In this document: in pieces, positions 8,423 to 62,680 of the stretch
Numbering within the stretch: position 1 is the first letter of the stretch
Layout of the letters: each line of letters opens with the position of its first letter
NCBI GenBank assembly: GCA_035627955.1
Contig: DASPKU010000001.1
Span: 186,001 to 250,000 of the forward strand
Origin: Phycisphaerales bacterium
GTDB taxonomy: Bacteria > Planctomycetota > Phycisphaerae > Phycisphaerales > UBA1924
DNA: 64,000 nucleotides
Reading direction: 5' to 3'
Made by a program: the position numbers and the translations under genes
Notes under the pieces: model-generated
The model's input: the letters and a program-made list of their open reading frames with translations, nothing else
The model's database searches: none
What the model was told of the DNA's origin: nothing

Positions 8423-9138
8423 GGGAGGGGATGGTAGAGCAAGGGGGTCGATGTCGGTTGTGCGATGTCGGATGTCGGAGGTGGGAGTTGCGAGTCGTCT
8501 GGGGACGATTGGCTCGCCCTGTAGGACTCAAAGGAGTCATGGGAGGCAAGGGAGTCATGGGAGACATGGGAATCAGGGGAGGCAGAGGCTGGACTGGGAT
8601 GGGGCGATGAGGTGGCGGGCAGCTTCTGAGCTGGCGGTGGCAGTGCGGACCGTCGCTGGCGCGTCGGGCTCGTCAGGCGGAGGATGGCGTTGGCGGCGCG
8701 GCGGGCTGTTTCTTCGTGCTCGCTGTAGGTGGCGATGCCGAGGAGGCGCGTGAGGGCGGCGTGGGTAGCCTCGGCCGCGAGTGTTTGCGTGCGGAGGTTG
8801 GCGATCCTCATGACGTGGTCGAGGCGCGCGCGGATGTGGGGCTGGGCGGCCCAGGCGGCGAGGCCAAGGACGCTGGTCTTGAGGTTGTGGGCGAGGTGGG
8901 GGAGGCGGGCGTCGTGGTCGAACCAGGCCTCGAAGAGTTCTTTGTCGCGGGGGGAGAGGGGGATGTCGGATGTCGGAGGTCGGATGTCGGAGGGTGGATG
9001 GGGTGCAGGGGAGCCATTGGACGCATGGGAGTCGGCGGGTGGCGCAGGGTGTTGATGCGGGTTCGGGGTGGGGGTTGGGTGGCCCACGCATCCTGATGCG
9101 TGGGCTTTGGTGTGCGTGTGAGGTTGGCTGGTGTTCAT
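7969..9138 (-). CDS. Hypothetical protein; only about 8620-9138 looks genuinely coding
   Basis: ATG at 9138 follows GAGGG on the minus strand. A plausible helical domain (about residues 65-165: DKELFEAWFDHDARLPHLAH, then AAWAAQPHIRARLDHVMR) is rich in Ala/Arg/Leu and of unknown function. It is flanked by repeat-derived low-complexity sequence. The N-terminus includes a GCCCACGCAT hairpin (9082-9105) and a CGGATGT tract. The tail after about residue 185 reads SHVSHDSLASHDS and PPTSDI, from short direct repeats. The frame stays open to 7969, overlapping fbp by 454 bp on the same strand, and that part is Ser/Pro-rich shadow sequence. The true end is probably near 8430-8600 with a frameshift. Confidence 0.4.
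   Translation of the reverse strand: MNTSQPHTHTKAHASGCVGHPTPTPNPHQHPAPPADSHASNGSPAPHPPSDIRPPTSDIPLSPRDKELFEAWFDHDARLPHLAHNLKTSVLGLAAWAAQPHIRARLDHVMRIANLRTQTLAAEATHAALTRLLGIATYSEHEETARRAANAILRLTSPTRQRRSALPPPAQKLPATSSPHPSPASASPDSHVSHDSLASHDSFESYRASQSSPDDSQLPPPTSDIAQPTSTPLLYHPLPCPPSPPTVSPSSAPSPSSTPPPTPPSPRPPVSEPASPSPRASSTSSPTSTARTPSSATSSTTPLVRSARSWRTPSRVASLTRNAPASSRSSTTRARPSPSSPRRSSNPAGAWSGSSRRSSSNSKLSASSARTTAATSTRCSSTPSCVNSS
8452..8495. repeat. CGGATGT-type short repeat tract
   Basis: Contains GATGTCGGTTGTGCGATGTCGGATGTCGGAGG in short units, matching the tract at 8956-8998. It lies just upstream of fbp and within the tail of the overlapping hypothetical frame. Confidence 0.5.
8956..8998. repeat. 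CGGATGT-type short repeat tract
   Basis: Near-tandem iterations of GGATGTCGGATGTCGGAGG. Related tracts occur at 8452-8495, 20693-20729, 23311-23345, 48581-48615 and, as the complement, in pcrA at 61279-61317. Here it encodes SDIRPPTSDI in the minus-strand protein. Confidence 0.6.
9082..9105. repeat. Perfect hairpin GCCCACGCAT/ATGCGTGGGC
   Basis: A perfect 10-bp inverted repeat with loop CCTG. It encodes part of the N-terminus of the minus-strand hypothetical protein (reading KAHASGCVGHP). The flanking bases are GGTG and TTTGG. It resembles the other palindromes that form coding termini in this window, but I see only one copy. Confidence 0.5.
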
Positions 9139-9440
9139 GGTGTGGCCCTCTACTTCAGGGGCCGGTGGTCACGTTTGTGCGCGCTATTCGGGGGTGCGGC
9201 GGGGGGGCCGGAGTGCGTTTGGGGCTGTGATTCCCGGTGTGAGATTGCGCGGGGAATTTCTGAGATTTGATTTGAGCGCGTGCGGAGTTGTGCGCACAAA
9301 CGTCGCCGATGGGGTGGAAGGGGGCGTGCGGCAAGGCGTTGCGCGGCGGGGGGTGTGCGCGAGTTTGCTGACAACGGTTGCGCTGGTTGTTGGAACGGAG
9401 ATCTGGTGGGGTGTGGAAGTGATCGAGATTGGGACGGGGA

Positions 9441-9473
9441 ACCACCGAGATGAAGACATCTCGGTGGCACGGT
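9441..9473. repeat. AAGA-loop hairpin, copy A
   Basis: Stem CCACCGAGATG (9442-9452), loop AAGA, stem CATCTCGGTGG (9457-9467), then tail CACGGT. The same 33 bp recur exactly at 20732-20764. Variants with other stems but the same loop and tail are at 10713-10743 and 52090-52116. It lies 55 bp before the methyltransferase start. The rest of the gene-free stretch 9139-9528 shows no recognisable feature. Confidence 0.8.
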
Positions 9474-9528
9474 GGTCGTGTGCGGAGTTGATGACATCGC
9501 GATCTCAAGCCGCTTGTAGGATGGAGTG

Positions 9529-20693: not shown

Positions 20694-20729
20694 TGTCGGA
20701 TGTGGGATATCGAATGTCGGATGTGGGGG
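20693..20729. repeat. CGGATGT-type short repeat tract at the pdeM start
   Basis: Iterations of ATGTCGGATGTGGGATAT and AATGTCGGATGTGGGG. It supplies the ATG codons that now open pdeM. Confidence 0.65.
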
Positions 20730-21400
20730 AGACCACCGAGATGAAGACATCTCGGTGGCACGGTGCGCTGCAGGTAGAGGTGGCTGGCGAAGAGGTGTGG
20801 CTGCTGCCGCACCGGGCGGCGTACTGGGCGCGGGCACGGACGCTGCTCATAGCGGATGTGCACTTGGACAAGTGCGAGGCGATGCGGGTGAACGGGATGC
20901 CGGTGCCGCGGGTGATGGATGAGGTGATCGCGCGGCTGGAGGATGCGGTGCGGGTGACGGGGGCGGCGCGGGTGATGGTGCTCGGGGACCTGCTGCACGC
21001 GCCGGCGGGGTTGACCGGGGCCATGATCGAGTGCTTCGCCGCTTGGCGGGCTTCGAGCAGCGTGGAGCTGGCGCTGGTGCCAGGGAACCACGACCGCGGG
21101 CTGCGCCACGTGCAGGACGCGTGGCGGATGACGGTGCTGCCGGAGGTGTACGAGGAAGGGCCGTTCACGTTCACGCACGTGCCGGCGCCGATGGCGGGGC
21201 GGTTCGTGTGGGGCGGGCACCTGCACCCTGCGGTGACGCTGCGGAGCAGCGCGGACTCTATCAAAATGGCGTGCTTCCACGTGGGGGCGGGGGTGGGCGT
21301 GCTGCCGGCGTTCTCCAGGTTCACGGCGGGGGGGCCGCTCTCGCGCGGGCGTGGAGACGGGGTGTTCGCGGTGGCGGGTGACCGGGTCGTGCCGGTGTAG
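20693..21400 (+). CDS. pdeM: PdeM-type metallophosphoesterase, ligase-associated
   Basis: A 235-aa calcineurin-like phosphoesterase coupled to the helicase gene by TGATG. Metal-site motifs are ADVHLDK near residue 61, GDLLH near 100, GNHDR near 125 and GGHLHP near 173. Family members normally begin just before a segment like LQVEVAGEEVWLLPHRA. Here about 24 extra codons precede it, made of a CGGATGT tract (20693-20729) and hairpin copy C (20732-20764). ATG 20741 inside the hairpin is an alternative start. The proposed role is nuclease or phosphodiesterase in double-strand break repair. Confidence 0.88.
   Translation: MSDVGYRMSDVGETTEMKTSRWHGALQVEVAGEEVWLLPHRAAYWARARTLLIADVHLDKCEAMRVNGMPVPRVMDEVIARLEDAVRVTGAARVMVLGDLLHAPAGLTGAMIECFAAWRASSSVELALVPGNHDRGLRHVQDAWRMTVLPEVYEEGPFTFTHVPAPMAGRFVWGGHLHPAVTLRSSADSIKMACFHVGAGVGVLPAFSRFTAGGPLSRGRGDGVFAVAGDRVVPV
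20732..20764. repeat. AAGA-loop hairpin, copy C (identical to copy A)
   Basis: The same 33 bp as 9441-9473: stem 20733-20743, loop AAGA 20744-20747, stem 20748-20758, tail CACGGT. It lies in frame within the first codons of pdeM, directly after a CGGATGT-type tract. Confidence 0.85.
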
Positions 21401-45285: not shown

Positions 45286-45701
45286 ACCAAACTCGGAGGC
45301 ACGGAGAGCACGGAGGCGGGGACGGGAGGAGCACCGTTCGCCGCGGGAGGCGTTTTCGTGGGCACGGTTGCAGCTTCCATGCCAGAGAAAACAGTCTTCG
45401 TTCGAGCGATTGGAGCTTCCGTGTCTGGGAAAGCAGTTTTCGTTGGCACGATTGGAGCTCCCGTGCCAGGGGTGACGGTTTTCGTTGGCACGATTGGAGC
45501 TCCCGCGGGCCCCGGACGCGCAGAAACCGCCGTGGCAAGGGATATTGCGCCCGCGTCTTCGCCACTCTCTCCACCCCGCGCTCACTGTCATCCGTCCCCT
45601 GGGAGGTGTCCCCGCTCCTCACTTTCCCGAGTCGTTTTCTCCTCTACGCCTCACCCGCCTCCGTGCGTTCCCTCCGTGCTCTCCGTGCCTCCGTGTTTGG
45701 T
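45286..45701. mobile_element. 416-bp inverted-repeat element (copy d) enclosing a 42-bp tandem array
   Basis: Terminal inverted repeats of 31 bp (45286-45316 and 45671-45701) differ at a single base. The arms belong to the CACGGAGG family. The interior contains the 42-bp tandem repeats (45352-45511) and no convincing protein. The element occupies most of the gene-free stretch 44989-45819 between mreB and the FG-GAP gene. A further CACGGAGG-like arm lies at 45189-45224. Confidence 0.7.
45352..45511 (+). repeat. 42-bp tandem repeat, about 3.8 copies
   Basis: Units begin at 45352, 45394, 45436 and 45478 with GTTTTCGTTGGCACGATTGG or close variants. Copies 3 and 4 are nearly identical; copies 1 and 2 are more diverged. 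The period is a multiple of three and all frames stay open on both strands, but no start or ribosome site supports translation. There are no spacers, so it is not a CRISPR. Confidence 0.85.
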
Positions 45702-48580: not shown

Positions 48581-48615
48581 GAAATGTCGGATGTCGGATT
48601 TCGGATGTCGAATGT
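48581..48615. repeat. CGGATGT-type short repeat tract
   Basis: AATGTCGGATGTCGGATTTC, GGATGTCGAATGTG, next to the terminator hairpin between two minus-strand genes. Confidence 0.6.
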
Positions 48616-52007: not shown

Positions 52008-52089
52008 GAGGTGCTCCGATAAGAGTGGTTGGGGGGAGTCTACAGAGGTTTGGGGTTGGTTGTGCTCCCGTCTTATTGGGATGGGAGAC

Positions 52090-52160
52090 ATAGCGACGAA
52101 GACGTCGCCATGGCACGCGGGAGTCGCCATGGCACGCAGGAGCTGCCATGGCACGCATGG
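52090..52160. repeat. AAGA-loop hairpin copy D with 19-bp tandem extension
   Basis: Stem ATAGCGACG (one mismatch), loop AAGA (52099-52102), stem CGTCGCCAT, tail TGGCACG. The right arm and tail are then repeated: CGCCATGGCACGCGGGAGT, CGCCATGGCACGCAGGAGC, TGCCATGGCACGCATGGGG. It lies upstream of tig. Confidence 0.75.
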
Positions 52161-53746: not shown

Positions 53747-53845
53747 GACGTTGGGACGAGCCCGGAACGAAGTGACGAGTCTTCGGTGAGACATGCGCAG
53801 GTGAAGACTCGGCCCGCTCACTGCGTTCGGGGCTCGTAACGAACG
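53747..53845. repeat. 99-bp inverted-repeat element, copy 1
   Basis: The outer arms contain ACGAGCCCGGAACGAAGTGA on the left and CTCACTGCGTTCGGGGCTCG on the right, with inner complementary GAGTCTTC and GAAGACTC. The element ends 2 bp before the asnB stop. Copy 2 is at 57341-57439. Confidence 0.8.
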
Positions 53846-53847
53846 GT

Positions 53848-55788
53848 TCAGGCGCTCTTGAGCGACCTTGACCAAATCGAGAGCACCAGCAGCATGTAGA
53901 GCCGCTGGCTGTGATCACGCTTGTGGTTCATGTGCTCATTGATCATCTGCGCGACGAACGTGCGGTTGAGCTCGAGGCCGATGTTGGGCCACGGGTCCGC
54001 GGCGTTGAGGTGGTCGAGCAGGAGCTGCTTCATCTGGCCGTAGTCGGTGCGGAACCAGTCGCCGATGGGGATGGCAAAGCCCTGCTTGGGCCGGTCGACG
54101 ATCTCAGGGGGGAGGTACTTGCGGGCGATGGCGCGGAGGAGGCCTTTGCGCTGGCCGCCTGGCATGAGAGATCCAAAGGAGGCGTGGATGCCCAGCTCCG
54201 CGACTTCGCGGGCGAGGATCGGTGCGCGGACCTCCAGGCCGACCGACATGCTGGCGGTGTCGGACTTGCGCATGAGGTCGTAGGGGAGGTAGAACATGAG
54301 GTCGAATCGGCGGGCCCAGCCATAGTCGCTGGACCACTTACCGTTCATCGGCGTGATGCCGTAATGGATGCCGTCGACGCCCCACTGGACACCGAGCTGC
54401 GCGTCGAACGGGGGTGGGTAGATGGCGACAAGCTCGCGGTAGCCTCCGCCGGTCGCGGCGTTGAGCAGGCGCGAGAGGCGCGTGCGGCGGGACTTGGGAT
54501 CGTCATCGGGGGTGATGCGCTTCGCCGCCGCGGCGCGGAATGCTTGAGGGATGCGGCCCATGCGCGTGAAAGCAGGCAGTACGCGGTGGCGGTCGTAGCC
54601 AAGGAAGAGCTCGTCGCCGCCATCGCCAGAGAGCGCGACCTTGACGTGCTGGCGGGCGGCCCGGCTGACCCAGATCGACGGCAGGAGCGAGCTGTCGCCG
54701 AATGGGAGGCCGAGCTGGATGATCGCGTGGACGAGGTCTTCGGCCGGCTTGGGTGCACACTCGAGGAGCTGATGGCGGATGTTAAGTGCGCGCGCGGTCG
54801 TGGCGGCAGCCTCCGACTCGTCGAACGACGGGTGCGGCATGCGCACGGTGAACGCGGTGAGGTCGGGCTTTGCCTCGCGGGCGTACGCGCACACGAGGGC
54901 CGAGTCGATTCCTCCGCTGAGGAAGACGCCGAGCGGCGCGTCGGCTTCGAGGCGCGAGTGGACGGCACGCCGGAGCACCGCGTCGGCATCATCGACGGAC
55001 ACATCGCGGGTGACGGCGTTCTCGATGTAGCCCCAGTAGCCGGGTGAGAAGGCATCGAGAGGGTAGCTGTCGAGCGCGGTCAGCTGCGTGCCTTGCGAGA
55101 ACTCCCGGATGATGGTGGATGGTGGGAGCTGGTTCCATCCGAACTTGATCCAGGGCGCGACCGAGGAGGTGGTGTTCGGAATGCCTGCTGCACTGAGTGC
55201 GGCGCTGACTGCGGTGTACGTGCTCGCGAACGCGAAGAAGCCGGCGCGATCGGCGGTGTGATAGAGCGGCTTTTCGCCGAAGGGGTCGCGGGCGAGGGTG
55301 AGCGTGCCGGCAGAGCGGTCCCAGATTGCGGCGGCGAACATGCCGTCGCTGCGCTGGAAGACCCCAACGCCCCACTCGCGCCAGCCGTGGATCAGCACCT
55401 CGGTGTCGCTGTGGTCGGTCGTGAACCGGTGCCCCTTGGACTCCAGCTCGCGCCGCAGCTCGCGGTGGTTGTAGATGCAGCCGTTGAACACCACGGCCAC
55501 GAGGCCCTCAGCGGGTCCCTGCAGATTGGGGCGGCCGCGTTCGCTGACCATCGGTTGCTGGCCGCAGGCAGGGTCGATGATGGCCAGGCGGCGGTGGACG
55601 AGGGCGACGTCGACGGTGCTGCCGTCGGGGCGGGTGGCGCGGTCGCGGAAGCGGCCTTGGCCGTCGGGGCCGCGGTGCTTGATGCGCTCGTCGATGGTGT
55701 CGAGCCAGGCCTCGGGGATGGATTTGTGCGGGGGCGGAGGGGTGTTGCCCGCGGGCCAGACTCGGAGAATGCCGCCGATGCCGCACAT
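53848..55788 (-). CDS. asnB: Asparagine synthetase, glutamine-hydrolysing
   Basis: 646 aa. The start MCGIGG places the catalytic Cys2 of the class II glutamine amidotransferase domain, followed by HRGPDGQG, RRLAIID and FNGCIYNHRELR. The synthetase domain has the PP-motif GVFLSGGIDSALV near residue 289 and GDGGDELFLGYDRHR. It converts aspartate and glutamine to asparagine and glutamate with ATP, or forms amide bonds on an envelope substrate as related paralogues do. Length is at the long end for AsnB. Confidence 0.93.
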   Translation of the reverse strand: MCGIGGILRVWPAGNTPPPPHKSIPEAWLDTIDERIKHRGPDGQGRFRDRATRPDGSTVDVALVHRRLAIIDPACGQQPMVSERGRPNLQGPAEGLVAVVFNGCIYNHRELRRELESKGHRFTTDHSDTEVLIHGWREWGVGVFQRSDGMFAAAIWDRSAGTLTLARDPFGEKPLYHTADRAGFFAFASTYTAVSAALSAAGIPNTTSSVAPWIKFGWNQLPPSTIIREFSQGTQLTALDSYPLDAFSPGYWGYIENAVTRDVSVDDADAVLRRAVHSRLEADAPLGVFLSGGIDSALVCAYAREAKPDLTAFTVRMPHPSFDESEAAATTARALNIRHQLLECAPKPAEDLVHAIIQLGLPFGDSSLLPSIWVSRAARQHVKVALSGDGGDELFLGYDRHRVLPAFTRMGRIPQAFRAAAAKRITPDDDPKSRRTRLSRLLNAATGGGYRELVAIYPPPFDAQLGVQWGVDGIHYGITPMNGKWSSDYGWARRFDLMFYLPYDLMRKSDTASMSVGLEVRAPILAREVAELGIHASFGSLMPGGQRKGLLRAIARKYLPPEIVDRPKQGFAIPIGDWFRTDYGQMKQLLLDHLNAADPWPNIGLELNRTFVAQMINEHMNHKRDHSQRLYMLLVLSIWSRSLKSA

Positions 55789-57340: not shown

Positions 57341-57439
57341 CGTTCAGACGAGCTCGGAACGCAGTGGCGGGTCTTGGTTGACGCGGATGGCTTGCGGGTC
57401 TCAGCCCACTCACTTCGTTCGGGGCTCGTTCCGAACGTT
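57341..57439. repeat. 99-bp inverted-repeat element, copy 2
   Basis: Arms ACGAGCTCGGAACGCAGTGG and CCACTCACTTCGTTCGGGGC (then TCG), with an interior resembling copy 1 at 53747. It sits between the methyltransferase start and the end of the HD gene. Read on the minus strand both copies encode similar peptides (TSPERSEWAE / TSPERSERAE), reflecting sequence conservation rather than a gene. Confidence 0.8.
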
Positions 57440-57445
57440 ATCTGA

Positions 57446-58003
57446 TCACTTGATCGGCACCTCTCGGATCGCCTCGATGCAGTTCTGGATGTGCTGCTCG
57501 TCGGTGACGTTCGCGAGAGGGCCGAGTTCGGAGACGCCAAGGGCGATATCTTCGCGGGACACTGCAGCTGCGAAGGCCTTGTCCTTGAGCTTCTTCTTGA
57601 CGGACTTGGGCTCAAGGGTCGCGAGACCGTCGGGGCGGACCTTGGCGCAGGCGACAATGAACCCCGCGAGCTCGTCGCAGGCGAAGAGGGCCTTGTCCAT
57701 GGGCGTGGCGCGGATGTAGCCGGTGCGTTCGGAGGCGTGCCCACGGATTGCGTTCATGATGGACTCGTCAACGCCGAGGGTGGCGAGGTGGGCGACACCG
57801 ACCTTGGGGTGCTCCTCGGCGGTGGGATGGCGCTCGTAGTCAAAGTCGTGCAGAAGGCCGGCGATCCGCCACTGCTCTTCGTAAGCGGGTTCGAGCTGCT
57901 TGGCGTAGCGGCCCATGCAGGCGGCGACAGTTTCCATGTGGATGCGGAGGGCGGGGCTTTGCACCCATTCGTGCATGAGGGTGCGGGCTTGGTCGAGGTT
58001 CAT
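57446..58003 (-). CDS. HD-domain phosphohydrolase
   Basis: 185 aa from ATG 58003. The metal-binding HD signature is in HMETVAACMGRY followed by IAGLLHDFDYERHP, then a conserved HPKVGVAHLATLGV and IRGHASERTG. It resembles small predicted HDIG hydrolases acting on nucleotides. The C-terminus is Lys-rich (LEPKSVKKKLKDKAF). The start lacks a ribosome site. A MITE-like palindrome begins 22 bp upstream. Confidence 0.85.
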   Translation of the reverse strand: MNLDQARTLMHEWVQSPALRIHMETVAACMGRYAKQLEPAYEEQWRIAGLLHDFDYERHPTAEEHPKVGVAHLATLGVDESIMNAIRGHASERTGYIRATPMDKALFACDELAGFIVACAKVRPDGLATLEPKSVKKKLKDKAFAAAVSREDIALGVSELGPLANVTDEQHIQNCIEAIREVPIK

Positions 58004-58024
58004 GGGCGGGAGTGTAATGGCTTT

Positions 58025-58130
58025 GGGTGGCCAGCCGCTCCGCGGCGGCTGCTTCAAGTGGCCGAGGCTCTTCAGCGATTGTGAGTGGGGTGAGCCGAAC
58101 GAAGCGCCGCCGCGGAGCGGCGGGGTACCC
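58025..58130. mobile_element. GC-palindrome MITE-like element, copy 1
   Basis: Left terminus GGGTGGCCAGCCGCTCCGCG (58025-) and right terminus ending GCGGAGCGGCGGGGTACCC are imperfect inverted repeats of about 31 bp, each containing GCCGCTCCGCGGCGGC. Total 106 bp between the HD and MBL genes. Confidence 0.75.
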
Positions 58131-58134
58131 AACG

Positions 58135-59169
58135 TCAGACGTCGCGAGCGGTGCCGTCGGGGCTGACCTGGATCGTGTGGTCGGGTGTCCACAGCTGCCC
58201 CATTTCACGCCCGACGACGCGGTGCTGCTGGCCATCCGCGGCCTGGAGCATCCGACGCATCGGCTCGTCGAGCGGCTCGTCGCTCAGCTTGAACGTGGAG
58301 TGGTGGATCGGGAGCAGGAAGTTGCCACCGGCCTGCTGGTGCATATCCCAGACCTGCTCGGGGCAGGCGTGGGCCTGGATCCACGGGTTGTACGCGCCGA
58401 TGCCGAAGATGGTGAGGTCGGCGCCTTGTCGCCCCAGTGTGGAGTAGCCCTCGGTGTGGGCCGTGTCGCCGGCGAAGAGCACTCGGTTCTTGTCGGACTC
58501 CAGGACGTAGCTGTTGAAGCCACGGTGGCGGTCCCAGGCGGTGCGGGCGCCCCAGTGGTTGGGTTTCAAGGCGCGGAGGCGGAGGCCGTTGACGCGGAGC
58601 TCCTTGTCCCACTCGAGCTCCTGCACGCTGGCGAAGCCCTTGGGGATGAGCCGCTTGGTGTTGAGGGCGGTGACGACGTGCGTGTTCTCACTGACCAGCT
58701 TCTTCATGCTGGGCAGATCGAGGTGGTCAAAGTGGGCGTGGCTAATGAGGATCAGATCCAGCGGCGGCAGCAGCGCCGGGTCGAAGGCGGGGCAGAGCCG
58801 GCCAACACCGAACGTCAGCGGCCCCAGCTTCACGCCGATCCGGTGGGAGAACACCGGGTCGGTGAGGATCCACTTGTCGCCCAGGCGGAGCAGGATGGTC
58901 GCGTGCCCCAGCCACGCTGCCACCAGCGGGCCGTCGTGGGCCGCGTGGTCCAGCTCACTCTGCCAGACCTCGCCCTGCTTCGTGTTGTTGCGGAAGCCGT
59001 CCAGGAACTCCTTGGAGTAGCGGCGCACGCTGGACCGGGCGACCCCGGTGAGCTCCTTGAGCTTGGTGACGTCCTCATCGGCCAGACGGAATGACTTCGG
59101 CGCTGGGGTCGCGCTCAAGTCGGTCTCTCCTGTTGGGTCGGTGAGGTCGCGCACGGCAGTGTTCACCAT
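58135..59169 (-). CDS. MBL-fold metal-dependent hydrolase (NAPE-PLD/UlaG-like)
   Basis: 344 aa. Metal ligands lie in SHAHFDHLD (HxHxDH), FAGDTAHTEG and LPIHHSTFKLSDEPLDEP. The N-terminus before residue 70 resembles the N-acyl phosphatidylethanolamine phospholipase D branch (WLGHATILLRLGDKWILTDP, then VFSHRIG). Cytoplasmic or peripheral; substrate unknown. It ends 5 bp from the MITE-like copy 1. Confidence 0.88.
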   Translation of the reverse strand: MVNTAVRDLTDPTGETDLSATPAPKSFRLADEDVTKLKELTGVARSSVRRYSKEFLDGFRNNTKQGEVWQSELDHAAHDGPLVAAWLGHATILLRLGDKWILTDPVFSHRIGVKLGPLTFGVGRLCPAFDPALLPPLDLILISHAHFDHLDLPSMKKLVSENTHVVTALNTKRLIPKGFASVQELEWDKELRVNGLRLRALKPNHWGARTAWDRHRGFNSYVLESDKNRVLFAGDTAHTEGYSTLGRQGADLTIFGIGAYNPWIQAHACPEQVWDMHQQAGGNFLLPIHHSTFKLSDEPLDEPMRRMLQAADGQQHRVVGREMGQLWTPDHTIQVSPDGTARDV

Positions 59170-59251
59170 AGGTGGGTGGTACGCGGCTCAAAAGGGCGTG
59201 TGCGGGTTCTTAGATGGTGATTGGGGTTTTGTGCTGAGAGATTCAGATGTT

Positions 59252-59360
59252 GGGTGGCAACCGCTGCGCGGCGGCACTCCGAAACGCGACTCGCGTGAAA
59301 AAGCTGACAGATGGAAGGAGTCTCCTGAGGGAAGAGCCGCCACGGAGCGGCTGGCCATCC
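59252..59360. mobile_element. GC-palindrome MITE-like element, copy 2
   Basis: GGGTGGCAACCGCTGCGCGG at the left and GCCACGGAGCGGCTGGCCAT at the right are imperfect inverted repeats; 109 bp in total. It lies 12 bp upstream of the pcrA start and is more diverged than copy 1. Confidence 0.7.
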
Positions 59361-59372
59361 AAACCATAAACT

Positions 59373-62003
59373 GTGGGCGTGACCCAGTTCTCCGACTCGT
59401 TCCTCTCCCGCCTGCACGGCCAGCATTCACCCGGTGACCAGCACGATGGTGGGCACGGTGAAGCCCCGCCCCCGCTCACGGCCGAGTCGCTGACGAAGGA
59501 CCTGACGCCGCCGCAGAAGGAGGCGGTGCTGGCGACGGAGGGGCCGCTGCTGGTGCTGGCCGCGGCGGGGTCGGGGAAAACCCGGGTGATTACGCGTCGG
59601 ATCGCGTACCTGATCTCGCTAGGGGTGCCGGCCTGGCAGATCATGGCCTTGACGTTCACGAACAAGGCCGCGGGCGAGATGCGGGAGCGCGTGCACACGC
59701 TGCTGGGGGATGGACAGCGTGCAAAGGGGCTGACGATTACGACGTTCCACTCGCTGTGCGCGCGGCTGCTGCGGCGGTACGCGGAGGCGGCGGGGCTGAA
59801 GCCGGACTACTCGATTTACGATTCGGGAGACCAGTCGGCGCTTTGCAAGAAGGTGATCGAGGCGCTGCAGTTGAGCACGAGCAATTTCCCGCCGCGGAGC
59901 GTGCTGAGCGCGATCAGCAACGCCAAGAACGACCTCAAGGACGCGGAGGCGTACGCGGCGGAGGCGTTCGACTTCTCGAGCAAGATGATTGCCAAGATCT
60001 ACGCGGGGTACACCAAGGCGTTGCGGGGCGCGAATGCGGTGGACTTCGACGACCTGCTGCTGCTGACGGCGAAGGTCCTGAAGAACGACCAGATGGCGCG
60101 GGAGGAGTGCCAGCGGCGGTGGCAGTACCTGCTCGTTGACGAGTACCAGGACACGAACCACGCGCAGTTCCTGATTGCGTCGCAGATCGCCGGCAAGGGC
60201 AGCGGGCCGGGGGGGCCGAACTTCTGCGTCGTCGGCGACCCGGACCAGGCGATTTACGGCTGGCGCGGCGCCGACATCAGCAACATCCTGGAGTTCGAGC
60301 AGCACTACCCCAAGGCGCGGACGATCACACTGGGCGAGAACTTCCGCTCGACGGCGCCCATCCTGAAGGTCGCCGACACGCTCATCCGCAACAACAAGCG
60401 GCGCAAGCACAAGGACCTCTTCACGAGCAAGGCGGGGGGCGAGAAGGTCGAGGCAGTGCTGACGCGTGATGAGCGGCACGAGGCCGACATCGTGGTCGAT
60501 TGGCTGAAGGCGCGTCATGAGGGCGTGACGTCCCGAGGGGAGAAGGGTGACAAGCCCGTTGCCTGGCGCGACATGGCGATTTTCTACCGAACCAACTCGC
60601 TGTCACGCGTGATGGAGGAGGCGCTTCGGGCGGCGGGGGTGCCGTACTCGATCGCGAAAGGCACGGCCTTCTACGAGCGCGAGGAAGTCAAGAACGTCCT
60701 CGCGTACCTGCGTGTGGTGGCGAACGCCGACGACTCGATCTCTCTGTCGCGGATCATCAACACGCCCGCGCGAGGTATCAGCAAGGCGACGCAGGACGCG
60801 GCCGAGCAGTTCGCGGCCATGCAGGGCATCAGCCTGCTCGATGCGTTCCGGCATGCCGATCAGCTGGATGGAATTACGCCGAAGGCGGTGACGAGCATCC
60901 AGAAGTTTCTGGAGATGTACGACGGGTGGACCGGCGGGGGCACGTTCCTCTACAAGGGCTCGGACCTCGGCCTCACCCTGCACGAGCTGGTTGATCGCGT
61001 GATCAAGGAGTCGGGCCTGGAGAAGATGTACAAGGAGCAGGCCGCGAAGAGCCAGACGGAGACGGACGCGGAGCGGCTGGACAACCTCGCGGAGATCGTG
61101 AGCGCGGCGCGGGAGTTTGAGCTGGAGTTCGACCCGGCGGCCGACCCTGCGGCCGATGTCATGGGTGGCCAGCCGCTCCGCGGCGGCCCTTCCGCTTCCG
61201 CCGCGGGCAAGACCCCCCCGAGCGTCGAGTGTGACCCCCTGGACGACTCACCGTTTGCACCGGACGCTGCATCGCTTCCAACTTCCGACTTCCCACCTCC
61301 GACTTCCACCGCCCCGAAGATGTTGTCAATGCTCCGTGCTTACCTCGAGTCCGTCGCCCTCGTCGCGGACGCCGACGCCGTGGACCCGGCGCAGGGCTCG
61401 GTGACGCTGATGACGCTGCACGCCGCGAAAGGGCTGGAGTTCCCGGCGGTCGCGATGATCGGCATGGAGGAGGGGCTGCTGCCGCACACGCGGGCTCTGA
61501 CCAGCGAGGCGGATATGGAGGAGGAGCGGCGGCTGGCGTTCGTGGGCGTCACGCGGGCGATGCGGCGGCTGCTGATGACGGCCGCGAAGTACCGGACGAT
61601 CCGCGGGCTTCAGGAGCGCACGATCCCAAGCCGCTTCCTGGGCGAGATGCCGCCGAGCGAGATGATCACGGTGGACATGAGTGATGTGTCCAGCGGCCTG
61701 GGCGAGGACTGGGGCGAGGAGCTCGACAGCGGCAGCGACCGGGTCGAGGCGCGCATCAGCCGCATGAACAGCGAGCGCCGCGGCGGGTCTACCTCGGGCG
61801 GCCCCGGCTTCTCACGCACGACGCCCGCGCCCGGGCTCGCGGGCGAGTTTCCGGTCGGCTGCCAGGTGCGCCACCCGCAGTTCGGGCTTGGCACGATCAG
61901 GAGCGTGCAGGGCGGGGCGAACGCGCGCGCGACGATCCAGTTCCGCGATGTAGGGGTGAAGACGATGGTGCTGGAGTATGCGCGTTTGACGCGGGTGAGT
62001 TAG
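59373..62003 (+). CDS. pcrA: UvrD/PcrA-family ATP-dependent DNA helicase with in-frame repeat inserts
   Basis: 876 aa, a 3'-5' superfamily 1 helicase for replication and repair. Walker A is AAAGSGKTRVITRRI near residue 68, motif II DEYQDTNHAQF, GDPDQAIYGWRGAD, TLHAAKGLEF and VGVTRAMRRL. The C-terminal Tudor-like segment is FPVGCQVRHPQFGLGTIRSV. Between about residues 594 and 650 there is an insert not normally present: a GC-palindrome arm (61163-61190) and a CGGATGT-complement tract (61279-61317). GTG 59373 or 59379 is the start. Pathway: mismatch and nucleotide excision repair, replisome rescue. Confidence 0.93.
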   Translation: MGVTQFSDSFLSRLHGQHSPGDQHDGGHGEAPPPLTAESLTKDLTPPQKEAVLATEGPLLVLAAAGSGKTRVITRRIAYLISLGVPAWQIMALTFTNKAAGEMRERVHTLLGDGQRAKGLTITTFHSLCARLLRRYAEAAGLKPDYSIYDSGDQSALCKKVIEALQLSTSNFPPRSVLSAISNAKNDLKDAEAYAAEAFDFSSKMIAKIYAGYTKALRGANAVDFDDLLLLTAKVLKNDQMAREECQRRWQYLLVDEYQDTNHAQFLIASQIAGKGSGPGGPNFCVVGDPDQAIYGWRGADISNILEFEQHYPKARTITLGENFRSTAPILKVADTLIRNNKRRKHKDLFTSKAGGEKVEAVLTRDERHEADIVVDWLKARHEGVTSRGEKGDKPVAWRDMAIFYRTNSLSRVMEEALRAAGVPYSIAKGTAFYEREEVKNVLAYLRVVANADDSISLSRIINTPARGISKATQDAAEQFAAMQGISLLDAFRHADQLDGITPKAVTSIQKFLEMYDGWTGGGTFLYKGSDLGLTLHELVDRVIKESGLEKMYKEQAAKSQTETDAERLDNLAEIVSAAREFELEFDPAADPAADVMGGQPLRGGPSASAAGKTPPSVECDPLDDSPFAPDAASLPTSDFPPPTSTAPKMLSMLRAYLESVALVADADAVDPAQGSVTLMTLHAAKGLEFPAVAMIGMEEGLLPHTRALTSEADMEEERRLAFVGVTRAMRRLLMTAAKYRTIRGLQERTIPSRFLGEMPPSEMITVDMSDVSSGLGEDWGEELDSGSDRVEARISRMNSERRGGSTSGGPGFSRTTPAPGLAGEFPVGCQVRHPQFGLGTIRSVQGGANARATIQFRDVGVKTMVLEYARLTRVS
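61163..61190. repeat. GC-palindrome arm inside pcrA
   Basis: Single copy of GGGTGGCCAGCCGCTCCGCG followed by GCGGCCC, identical to the left terminus of the 58025 element over its first 26 bases, encoding MGGQPLRGGP in frame. The right terminus is missing. Confidence 0.75.
61279..61317. repeat. CGGATGT-type tract (complement) inside pcrA
   Basis: TTCCAACTTCCGACTTCCCA, CCTCCGACTTCCACC: the reverse complement of the tract family, in frame as LPTSDFPPPTST. Confidence 0.6.
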
Positions 62004-62011
62004 CTGCGTCT

Positions 62012-62178
62012 GGGTACCCCGCCGCTCCGCGGCGGTCTCACTGCGGCGTGGGCCAGCTCGGAGCGACGGATCGAACGTTGGCACGAGTGGATCTTGCTCG
62101 GCGAGCGTCGCACGTTTCTTTGACGTTCGACTTGACCGTGACCAACGGAAAGAGCCGCCGCGGAGCGGCGGGGTACCC
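62012..62178. mobile_element. GC-palindrome MITE-like element, copy 3
   Basis: GGGTACCCCGCCGCTCCGCG at the left and GCGGAGCGGCGGGGTACCCG at the right, perfectly complementary over about 26 bp; 167 bp in total with a unique interior. It is immediately downstream of pcrA. Confidence 0.8.
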
Positions 62179-62182
62179 GCTG

Positions 62183-62680
62183 CTACGTCACCATCCACAG
62201 CCACGCCAGAGTCACGACGAACATCAGCACGTGCACGCCCCAGATACCCGCGGCGAAGGCGGCCTGCATGCGCGTGGTCCATGCCATGATGCGGTGGCGG
62301 CGGCGGTACATGAGGACGACCGACGCGACGCTGAGCCAGCCGAAGGCGGTGGCGGCGTACCCGGGCGGGGGCATGCGGTCGCCGGGCGGGAGCTGGTGCC
62401 AGTGTGTGATGATGATGGGGACCATCATGAACACGGCCGCGACGCCGCTGAAGCAGCCCGGGGCCATCGCGACGATCAGCCACGCGAAGTGGGGGCGTGC
62501 GGAGGCAATCTTCAGGACCAGCTCGTCACCGCACTCCGGGCAGGTCGCAGTCTGAATATCGCGCAGGTCGTAGCCGCAGCGTGGGCATGGGACGGAGCGG
62601 TTGTGGAGGTAGGCGATGACTTCAGCATGTGGGTCGGGCGCTTGGAAAGTTGCGTGGCTGTCAGCGGGGTGAGGGATCAT
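62183..62680 (-). CDS. Zinc-ribbon membrane protein
   Basis: 165 aa from ATG 62680. A short N-terminal segment leads to CPRCGYDLRDIQTATCPECG, then four membrane helices (FAWLIVAMAPGCFSGVAAVF, YAATAFGWLSVASVVLMY, AAFAAGIWGVHVLMFVVTLA). The same ribbon appears in the next gene and at 14115 and 42104. Function unknown. Confidence 0.78.
   Translation of the reverse strand: MIPHPADSHATFQAPDPHAEVIAYLHNRSVPCPRCGYDLRDIQTATCPECGDELVLKIASARPHFAWLIVAMAPGCFSGVAAVFMMVPIIITHWHQLPPGDRMPPPGYAATAFGWLSVASVVLMYRRRHRIMAWTTRMQAAFAAGIWGVHVLMFVVTLAWLWMVT

Follow-up and report, generated by a model that had tools for sequence, protein, structure and literature searches.

The PcrA locus

The window analyzed here is a 64,000 nucleotide (nt) stretch of a Phycisphaerales bacterium genome (assembly GCA_035627955.1, contig DASPKU010000001.1, positions 186,001 to 250,000), a draft of 23 contigs and 4.26 Mb with 95.67% completeness. 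It encodes a PcrA/UvrD-type helicase in which the linker ahead of TLHAAKGLEF carries, in frame, one solo copy each of two unrelated, palindrome-forming repeat families, here denoted A and B. As the initial annotation of this DNA had proposed, two different families thus share one reading frame in PcrA; both are dispersed through the genome and are also found in other conserved genes.

The identity of the helicase is indicated by the profile scores (281 bits for PF00580 and 208 bits for PF13361) and by the top PDB match, PcrA 1pjr, with an E-value of 8.7e-154. A search of the source genome with the protein yielded three matches, the two listed being pcrA itself and a partial match with 32% identity, and the identity to the nearest named relatives, mostly metagenome-assembled genomes of Phycisphaerales, is 58-66%. 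No known RNA family reaches the gathering threshold in the region 57900-62300.

Between AAREF and LRAYLESVALVADAD, the PcrA linker is 71 residues long, about 37 residues above the median of the relatives (33.5, range 17-70; n = 36 alignable of 41 loci, with five loci lacking a usable open reading frame (ORF) left out); none of these 36 linkers contains repeat A or repeat B motifs, and the comparison with relatives suggested in the initial annotation did not refute its reading. The repeat A copy is identical to the family consensus in 27 of 31 positions and to the intergenic copy at 58024 in 26 of 26 nt, and as DNA forms a hairpin of -10.8 kcal/mol (z = -2.44). The repeat B copy is a single array with no hairpin fold that has one mismatch to GTCGGANGTCGGANGTCGGA over the best 20 nt; it encodes residues ~635-646 and is placed in frame by the codon usage on both sides. 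Enclosed by the two is a native-looking stretch, part of which, LDDSPF, recurs in the repeat-free linker of a relative (genome G023, locus L012), such that, judging from the sequence, the repeats seem to border an older linker core.

These findings refine the initial description of the insert as ~55 residues of low-complexity sequence that begins with a perfect copy of a palindrome terminus and ends with a CGGATGT tract. The ORF and the position of the stretch stand, but the insert is not repeat throughout, given the native-looking residues 613-633; the copy is perfect when compared to its neighbor at 58024 but not when compared to the consensus; and repeat B is indeed present at the end of the insert, albeit in PcrA mainly as the A/G variant, whereas CGGATGT is the T variant.

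The AlphaFold2 model of PcrA (23 sequences, mean predicted local distance difference test score (pLDDT) of 78.9) places the insert in a disordered linker: residues 597-614 and 616-645 have pLDDT values below 50, and residues 598-649 lack secondary structure. The alignment with 1pjr is interrupted at the same place, with no aligned residues between query positions 586 and 654. In the model, the insertion site lies between the predicted helices 563-585 and 650-664, directly ahead of TLHAAKGLEF. That an essential helicase tolerates two insertions is less surprising than the initial annotation suggested because the linker is naturally hypervariable and predicted to be disordered.

Table 1. Features of the PcrA locus and other repeat copies in the window (REP, repetitive extragenic palindromic sequence; REPIN, REP doublet forming a hairpin)
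Feature	Coordinates	Strand	Remarks
Repeat B heptamer array	8460..8486	+	
Repeat B heptamer array	8958..8998	+	
Repeat B heptamer array	48586..48612	+	Neither side with coding signal
Repeat A inverted pair, REPIN-like	58024..58131		108 bp; stop of adjoining minus-strand gene 3 nt away
Degenerate repeat A pair between divergent gene and pcrA	59251..59361		Hairpin cores at 59261 and 59337
pcrA/uvrD-type helicase gene	59373..62003	+	876 aa, GTG start; ORF intact
Repeat A, solo, in frame, encoding MGGQPLRGGPS (residues 597-607)	61162..61192	+	Own-genome family
Native-looking linker core KTPPSVECDPLDDSPFAPDAA (residues 613-633)	61209..61271	+	LDDSPF in common with L012
Repeat B array of minus-strand GTCGGAN units, read as LPTSDFPPPTS in PcrA	61276..61307	-	Genome-wide heptamer family
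Repeat A inverted pair, beginning 7 nt past the pcrA stop	62011..62179		24-nt arms, 100% complementary

Two families of interspersed repeats

Repeat A has a 31-nt consensus, TGGGTACCCCGCCGCTCCGCGGCGGCTCTTC, with the outer end GGGTACC, and folds as a 7-bp hairpin. In the source genome, the 31-mer has 42 matches with up to three mismatches compared to none for the reversed control, and the 14-mer core has 117 matches with up to one mismatch compared to 31 for the control; all 69 exact core matches were placed on the genome. Across 103 copies, the hairpin is maintained by paired changes in the stem, which occupy 10 cells, against a mean of 1.35 and a maximum of 4 in shuffled data. The arrangement of the repeats was examined in 469,588 bases of the source genome, taken around the 69 exact cores, the listed repeat B matches and the transposase genes (hereinafter, the analyzed DNA). 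In this DNA, repeat A occurs as 20 inverted pairs, 18 of which span 83-122 bp, and as a further 40 single copies (2 of the 40 being chance-like). The pairing script accepted only sense-then-antisense arms; the 40 unpaired copies include one close direct pair (L246) and, as listed, no antisense-then-sense arms separated by 150 bp or less. Three sites were left out of later counts, namely L292, which has no outer arm, and L111:5461 and L248:858, with nine mismatches each. Intergenic copies tend to lie next to stop codons, at a distance of up to 15 nt in 25 of 36 stop-side cases compared to 8 of 34 start-side cases. The pair at 58024 in the window forms a single hairpin (z = -6.47); for the degenerate pair upstream of pcrA, the outer ends were read from the sequence, and only the right arm passed the copy filter.

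Repeat B is a tandem heptamer, GTCGGAN, with 141 matches in the source genome at up to two mismatches compared to one for the control; the placements rest on the 100 listed of these 141 matches. In the analyzed DNA, 57 arrays reach a length of 20 nt or more, and 40 of them consist of three to four units; 21 are located in called genes and 36 are intergenic, under an array definition looser than that behind the 49 sites of the phase count below. Arrays come within 150 bp of each other in six cases, five of them inverted, spanning 72-114 bp. Two of the inverted pairs fold into strong hairpins and lie within the reading frame of their host, one of 84 bp in an aldehyde dehydrogenase (L081, z = -10.45) and one of 72 bp in PolA (L259, z = -4.62).

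An alternative under which nothing was inserted, the linker being a hypervariable low-complexity sequence that became repeat-like by convergence, can draw on the repeat-free linkers of relatives that reach 70 residues and on MiaA, where the loop aligned to the residues that the repeat encodes is of almost the same length. Given the control counts of 0 for A and 1 for B at the DNA level, the 26 nt shared without a change with an intergenic copy, and the recurrence of these sequences in numerous unrelated genes as well as in intergenic DNA, we consider this explanation highly improbable.

Repeat A is present in 4 of 150 genomes of the family, the source genome included, and in 1 of the 392 genomes drawn from the phylum, namely, the source genome itself, and accordingly, a wide distribution of this repeat in the phylum was rejected; exact matches to repeat B occur in 8 of 150 family genomes, again including the source genome. 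Among 12 sites in other genera, 5 are in frame, one of these sites (L134) being doubtful, with the element at the end of the ORF. The in-frame copies of repeat A belong to PheT, TyrS and an NtrC-like regulator in genome G092, and to 6-phosphogluconate dehydrogenase in genome G114; the copies from other genera read GTPPLRGGSS or a one-residue variant.

These observations also bear on the possibility that repeat copies were wrongly joined into genes during assembly or binning, as could be feared for a 23-contig draft with 95.67% completeness, since repeats can cause false joins. However, the repeats are short, the flanks stay in phase and both match one protein, the pcrA reading frame is unbroken, and similar cases were seen at numerous loci, including some in other genera; an assembly error, one of the refutations foreseen in the initial annotation, is thus the least probable of the explanations considered here.

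In-frame repeats in core proteins

Whether the repeats interrupt genes in phase was assessed by judging the frame separately on each side of a repeat, using a codon-usage model trained on the analyzed DNA. Among 59 repeat A sites, 13 are in phase without a stop (a further in-frame hit, L292, was dropped) and none is out of phase; the remaining sites include 27 with one coding side, 16 with none and 2 between opposite genes. For repeat B, 11 of the 49 sites are in phase and 2 are out of phase; 23 have one coding side and 13 have none. If phase were random, such numbers of in-phase sites would arise with probabilities of 6e-7 for A and 2e-4 for B. The repeat A copy in PcrA and the repeat B copy in PolA scored as coding on one side only, where the flanking window enters repeat B (PcrA) or passes the stop (PolA), and both were assigned as in frame from the ORF and the alignments. 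Both families are rarer in genes (23 of 58 for A and 21 of 57 for B) than expected from the 82.8% coding fraction of the sampled DNA, which is what selection against disruptive copies predicts.

The proteins that host the repeats include enzymes of DNA replication and repair, namely, PcrA, MutS, PolA, LigA, a DinG/YoaA-type helicase and a DnaE-type error-prone polymerase, along with CysS, MiaA, MiaB, NadE, PurM, MetH, kynureninase, methylmalonate-semialdehyde dehydrogenase and an MqnC-type radical SAM enzyme. Host identities were assigned by NCBIfam, Pfam or PDB matches, several of which score below the curated threshold of the respective model, as would be anticipated for interrupted or distant proteins. 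No family match was obtained for the host ORFs in L249 and L285 and for one of the two in L255, whereas the ORF in L245 has an NCBIfam match only. Two repeat B copies, one in the fumarase-type ORF of L268 and one upstream of the MutS start (L265:4491), are of doubtful genic status and are possibly leader sequence.

Where a solved homologue could be aligned, the repeats fall into loops. The alignments show gaps over the repeat in PolA, LigA and loop 2 of MutS, which holds three arrays in two loops; an unaligned stretch at the repeat in loop 1 of MutS and in CysS; and two different situations in NadE, where one repeat coincides with a 7-residue gap and the other with an unaligned linker. Compared to the relatives (n = 29 in each case), MutS loop 1 is 45 residues long against a median of 22 (range 18-38), MutS loop 2 is 39 against 28 (range 21-53), and the PolA loop is 49 against 40 (range 30-54). 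Searches of the source genome yielded a single match for MutS and a single full-length match for PolA.

Two parts of MetH, each with a repeat A copy, are encoded close to where contigs C20 and C22 end (L254 and L257) and are perhaps one gene split by a contig gap. At L234:938-3370, a single ORF encodes two beta-ketoacyl synthase-like domains, the start of the second being surrounded by two repeat A arms, and may be a gene fusion across repeat copies. In MutS of the relative G011 (L337), the loop that carries repeat B in the source genome is filled by a different repetitive peptide, TLRSDEVTKGRSDEVKG, perhaps another repeat family.

Frame use and the question of selection

The initial annotation took the toleration of the insertions as a sign that the elements are frame-neutral, but a special frame neutrality is not supported. 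Both repeats are indeed open in all six frames, but this property is too common at the GC content of this DNA to be meaningful, being shared by 37% of the 31-mers of the window, 70% of shuffled repeat A sequences and 47-70% of permuted heptamers, and the notion of six-frame openness as a special property was rejected. Moreover, the copies of repeat A in called genes do not use the frames evenly: 22 of 29 arms employ two of the six, reading GTPPLRGGS in the sense or EEPPRSGGVP in the antisense orientation, or close variants thereof. The same preference holds for 13 of 17 single copies (P = 0.005, corrected for choosing the two best frames); 3 of these 17 are located at most 20 codons from the called start (L234:4315, L245:2393 and L253:10247, the last in TruD) and may be leader sequence. 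We take the bias to reflect selection for neutral, flexible peptides.

A stronger version of selection, in which the repeats are retained as ready-made flexible linkers or tune DNA repair enzymes, for example through a mutator effect, would accommodate the preference for these two P/G-rich peptides as well as the series of repair and replication hosts, from PcrA, MutS, PolA and LigA to the DnaE-type polymerase and the DinG/YoaA-type helicase. It also has a precedent in Di Nocera et al. 2013 (PMC3733652), where the same kinds of genes are reported to host repeats and a mutator role is the subject of speculation. Nevertheless, purifying selection predicts a frame preference equally, long genes offer more targets, and many of the hosts, such as kynureninase, PurM, MetH and the MqnC-type enzyme, are unrelated to DNA, so we regard this version as unlikely.

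Origin of the PcrA insert

The explanation that we favor, with a probability of about 0.8, is that two interspersed palindromic families, having spread through the genome, each contributed a solo copy to the PcrA insert, the genic copies persisting where they are harmless. Repeat A is the REP-like 31-nt hairpin, which occurs singly or in inverted pairs, and repeat B is the GTCGGAN array, which occurs singly or as oppositely oriented arrays folding into a long hairpin. We infer that both move or are copied and land widely. The copies are located mostly between genes; with purifying selection as the filter, copies within genes would survive only when the frame is kept, no stop is introduced and the site is a loop or a disordered linker, where they would be nearly neutral for the protein and the repeat would be simply translated as an extra peptide.

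A number of observations weigh against this explanation. The longest linkers of the relatives, at 70 residues, match the length of the PcrA linker without any repeats, and loops vary anyway, with some relatives equaling or exceeding PolA (up to 54 residues) and MutS loop 2 (up to 53). The gap between MiaA and its solved homologue is only four residues, and the repeat therefore replaced rather than lengthened the loop. The closest relatives of PcrA are at most 70% identical, and therefore no exact empty site is demonstrable. Two repeat B sites are out of phase, and none of the eight repeat B sites examined in other genomes is in frame inside a gene. With regard to the stem of repeat A, 8 of the 10 cells with paired changes represent one A-T change in the copies from other genera, possibly a single event. 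The interiors of the 20 repeat A pairs have no clear similarity, with no BLAST match between them and a mean spacer alignment score of 7.39 compared to 7.10-7.36 in eight shuffles, which is unexpected for a unit copied whole, unless it is old. Finally, no transposase could be tied to either family and no mobilizing enzyme was found; in particular, in this 95.67% complete draft, repeat A does not occur within ~2.5 kb of any of the nine Y1_Tnp loci, the nearest copy being 3.3 kb away (L112).

Relationships with known repeats

The presence of in-frame palindromic repeats in proteins is a known phenomenon. Di Nocera et al. 2013 (PMC3733652) describe intragenic GTAG/CGTC-tagged REPs in a UvrD-type helicase, Pol I and ligase, and also report such REPs from the Planctomycetes-Verrucomicrobia-Chlamydiae (PVC) group. 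The likeness lies in the host genes, which include the UvrD-type helicase, Pol I, ligase and tRNA enzymes in both cases. In contrast to those REPs, repeat A has a GGGTACC end and lacks both GTAG and CGTC, the arms of repeat B are heptamer arrays, and two unrelated families meet in one linker, in a Phycisphaerales-like host.

The parallel drawn in the initial annotation with Rickettsia palindromic elements stands in the sense that the repeats work alike. Those elements, about 150 bp in size, are found in frame in many unrelated genes at fold-compatible sites according to the review PMC10969869, and so are A and B; with respect to that ~150 bp, repeat A is 31 nt long, its pairs mostly span 83-122 bp and the repeat B pairs span 72-114 bp, the comparison being one of behavior and size, not of sequence. 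Heptameric G-rich repeats, with the units GGGAATC and GGGGA(T/C)T, are known from Xanthomonas and Nostoc (PMC4692102); like these, repeat B forms interspersed arrays of a few units that are more common outside genes, but its unit is GTCGGAN, and its arrays are also inverted to form hairpins and reside in frame in housekeeping proteins.

We found no match for heptamer-armed palindromes inside proteins in the open-access literature searched, and these are the newest part of our findings; as far as that literature shows, the lineage, the GGGTACC-ended repeat A, the heptamer-armed repeat B and the meeting of both in one protein are new. It is conceivable, although we would bet against it, that repeat B represents an undescribed class of coding repeats, a palindrome with tandem-heptamer arms whose arrays pass through all frames without a stop because 7 is prime to 3, and which, in frame in replication, repair and tRNA-modifying enzymes, would be joined by a REP-like family, so that two independent families would supply one and the same set of core proteins with new peptide loops. 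More generally, our observations suggest in-frame residence of repeats in core proteins of a 4.3 Mb planctomycete, with two unrelated families at once, and offer well-known proteins for asking whether such inserts are tolerated or change the enzyme. They also call for caution on the part of annotators and users of profiles when dealing with repeat-derived insertions.

Element class and mobility

REPINs consist of an inverted pair with hairpin arms and are dispersed over the genome. Repeat A likewise forms genome-wide inverted pairs with hairpin arms; its length of 31 nt and its 42 matches are within the range of REP hairpins (20-40 nt, many copies), and the 83-122 bp span of 18 of its 20 pairs corresponds to the constant spacing of REPINs. 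In contrast to the REPs mobilized by RAYTs (REP-associated tyrosine transposases), no RAYT gene lies beside repeat A in the source genome despite the nine Y1_Tnp genes, and neither GTAG nor CGTC is found in the consensus on either strand. Given the absence of the tag and the tentative nature of any transposase link, we describe repeat A as REP-like and refrain from placing it among the RAYT-type REPs.

Mobilization of repeat A by a resident RAYT is accordingly unsupported in the source genome, where the five Y1_Tnp genes examined for repeats are flanked by other inverted repeats and the resemblance of a 17-mer to repeat A near the Y1_Tnp gene in L108 is weak. Three relatives, with 24 Y1_Tnp loci between them, provide one weak lead: the best locus, L298 in the relative G067, contains one repeat A-like copy with 25 of 31 positions identical (L298:2589-2619) ~0.7 kb downstream of the Y1_Tnp gene. 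The classification of repeat A as a miniature inverted-repeat transposable element (MITE) copied whole is unsupported as well, considering the dissimilar pair interiors with scores close to those of shuffles; no target site duplication was evident by eye in the 12-nt flanks of the listed repeat A pairs.

Other repeats in the window

A distinct REP family, AACGAGCCCCGAACGAAGTGAGCGGG, is represented at 53808-53864 and 57400-57456 and resembles the repeats beside a Y1_Tnp gene of the source genome (L114). This family has 0 of 17 copies in called genes, compared to 29 of 76 arms of repeat A (Fisher P = 0.001-0.002). Another hairpin family, CACCGAGATG..CATCTCGGTGGCAC, is found at 9436-9474, 20727-20765 and 52082-52120; among its 14 copies in the analyzed DNA, 3 are located in called ORFs, two of which read ATEMSSSRC, so that this is possibly a third in-frame family. 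Finally, the region 45286-45701 is bounded by a 31-nt inverted repeat with 97% complementarity, the arms of which are 354 nt apart and enclose three 42-nt tandem copies at 45352-45477.

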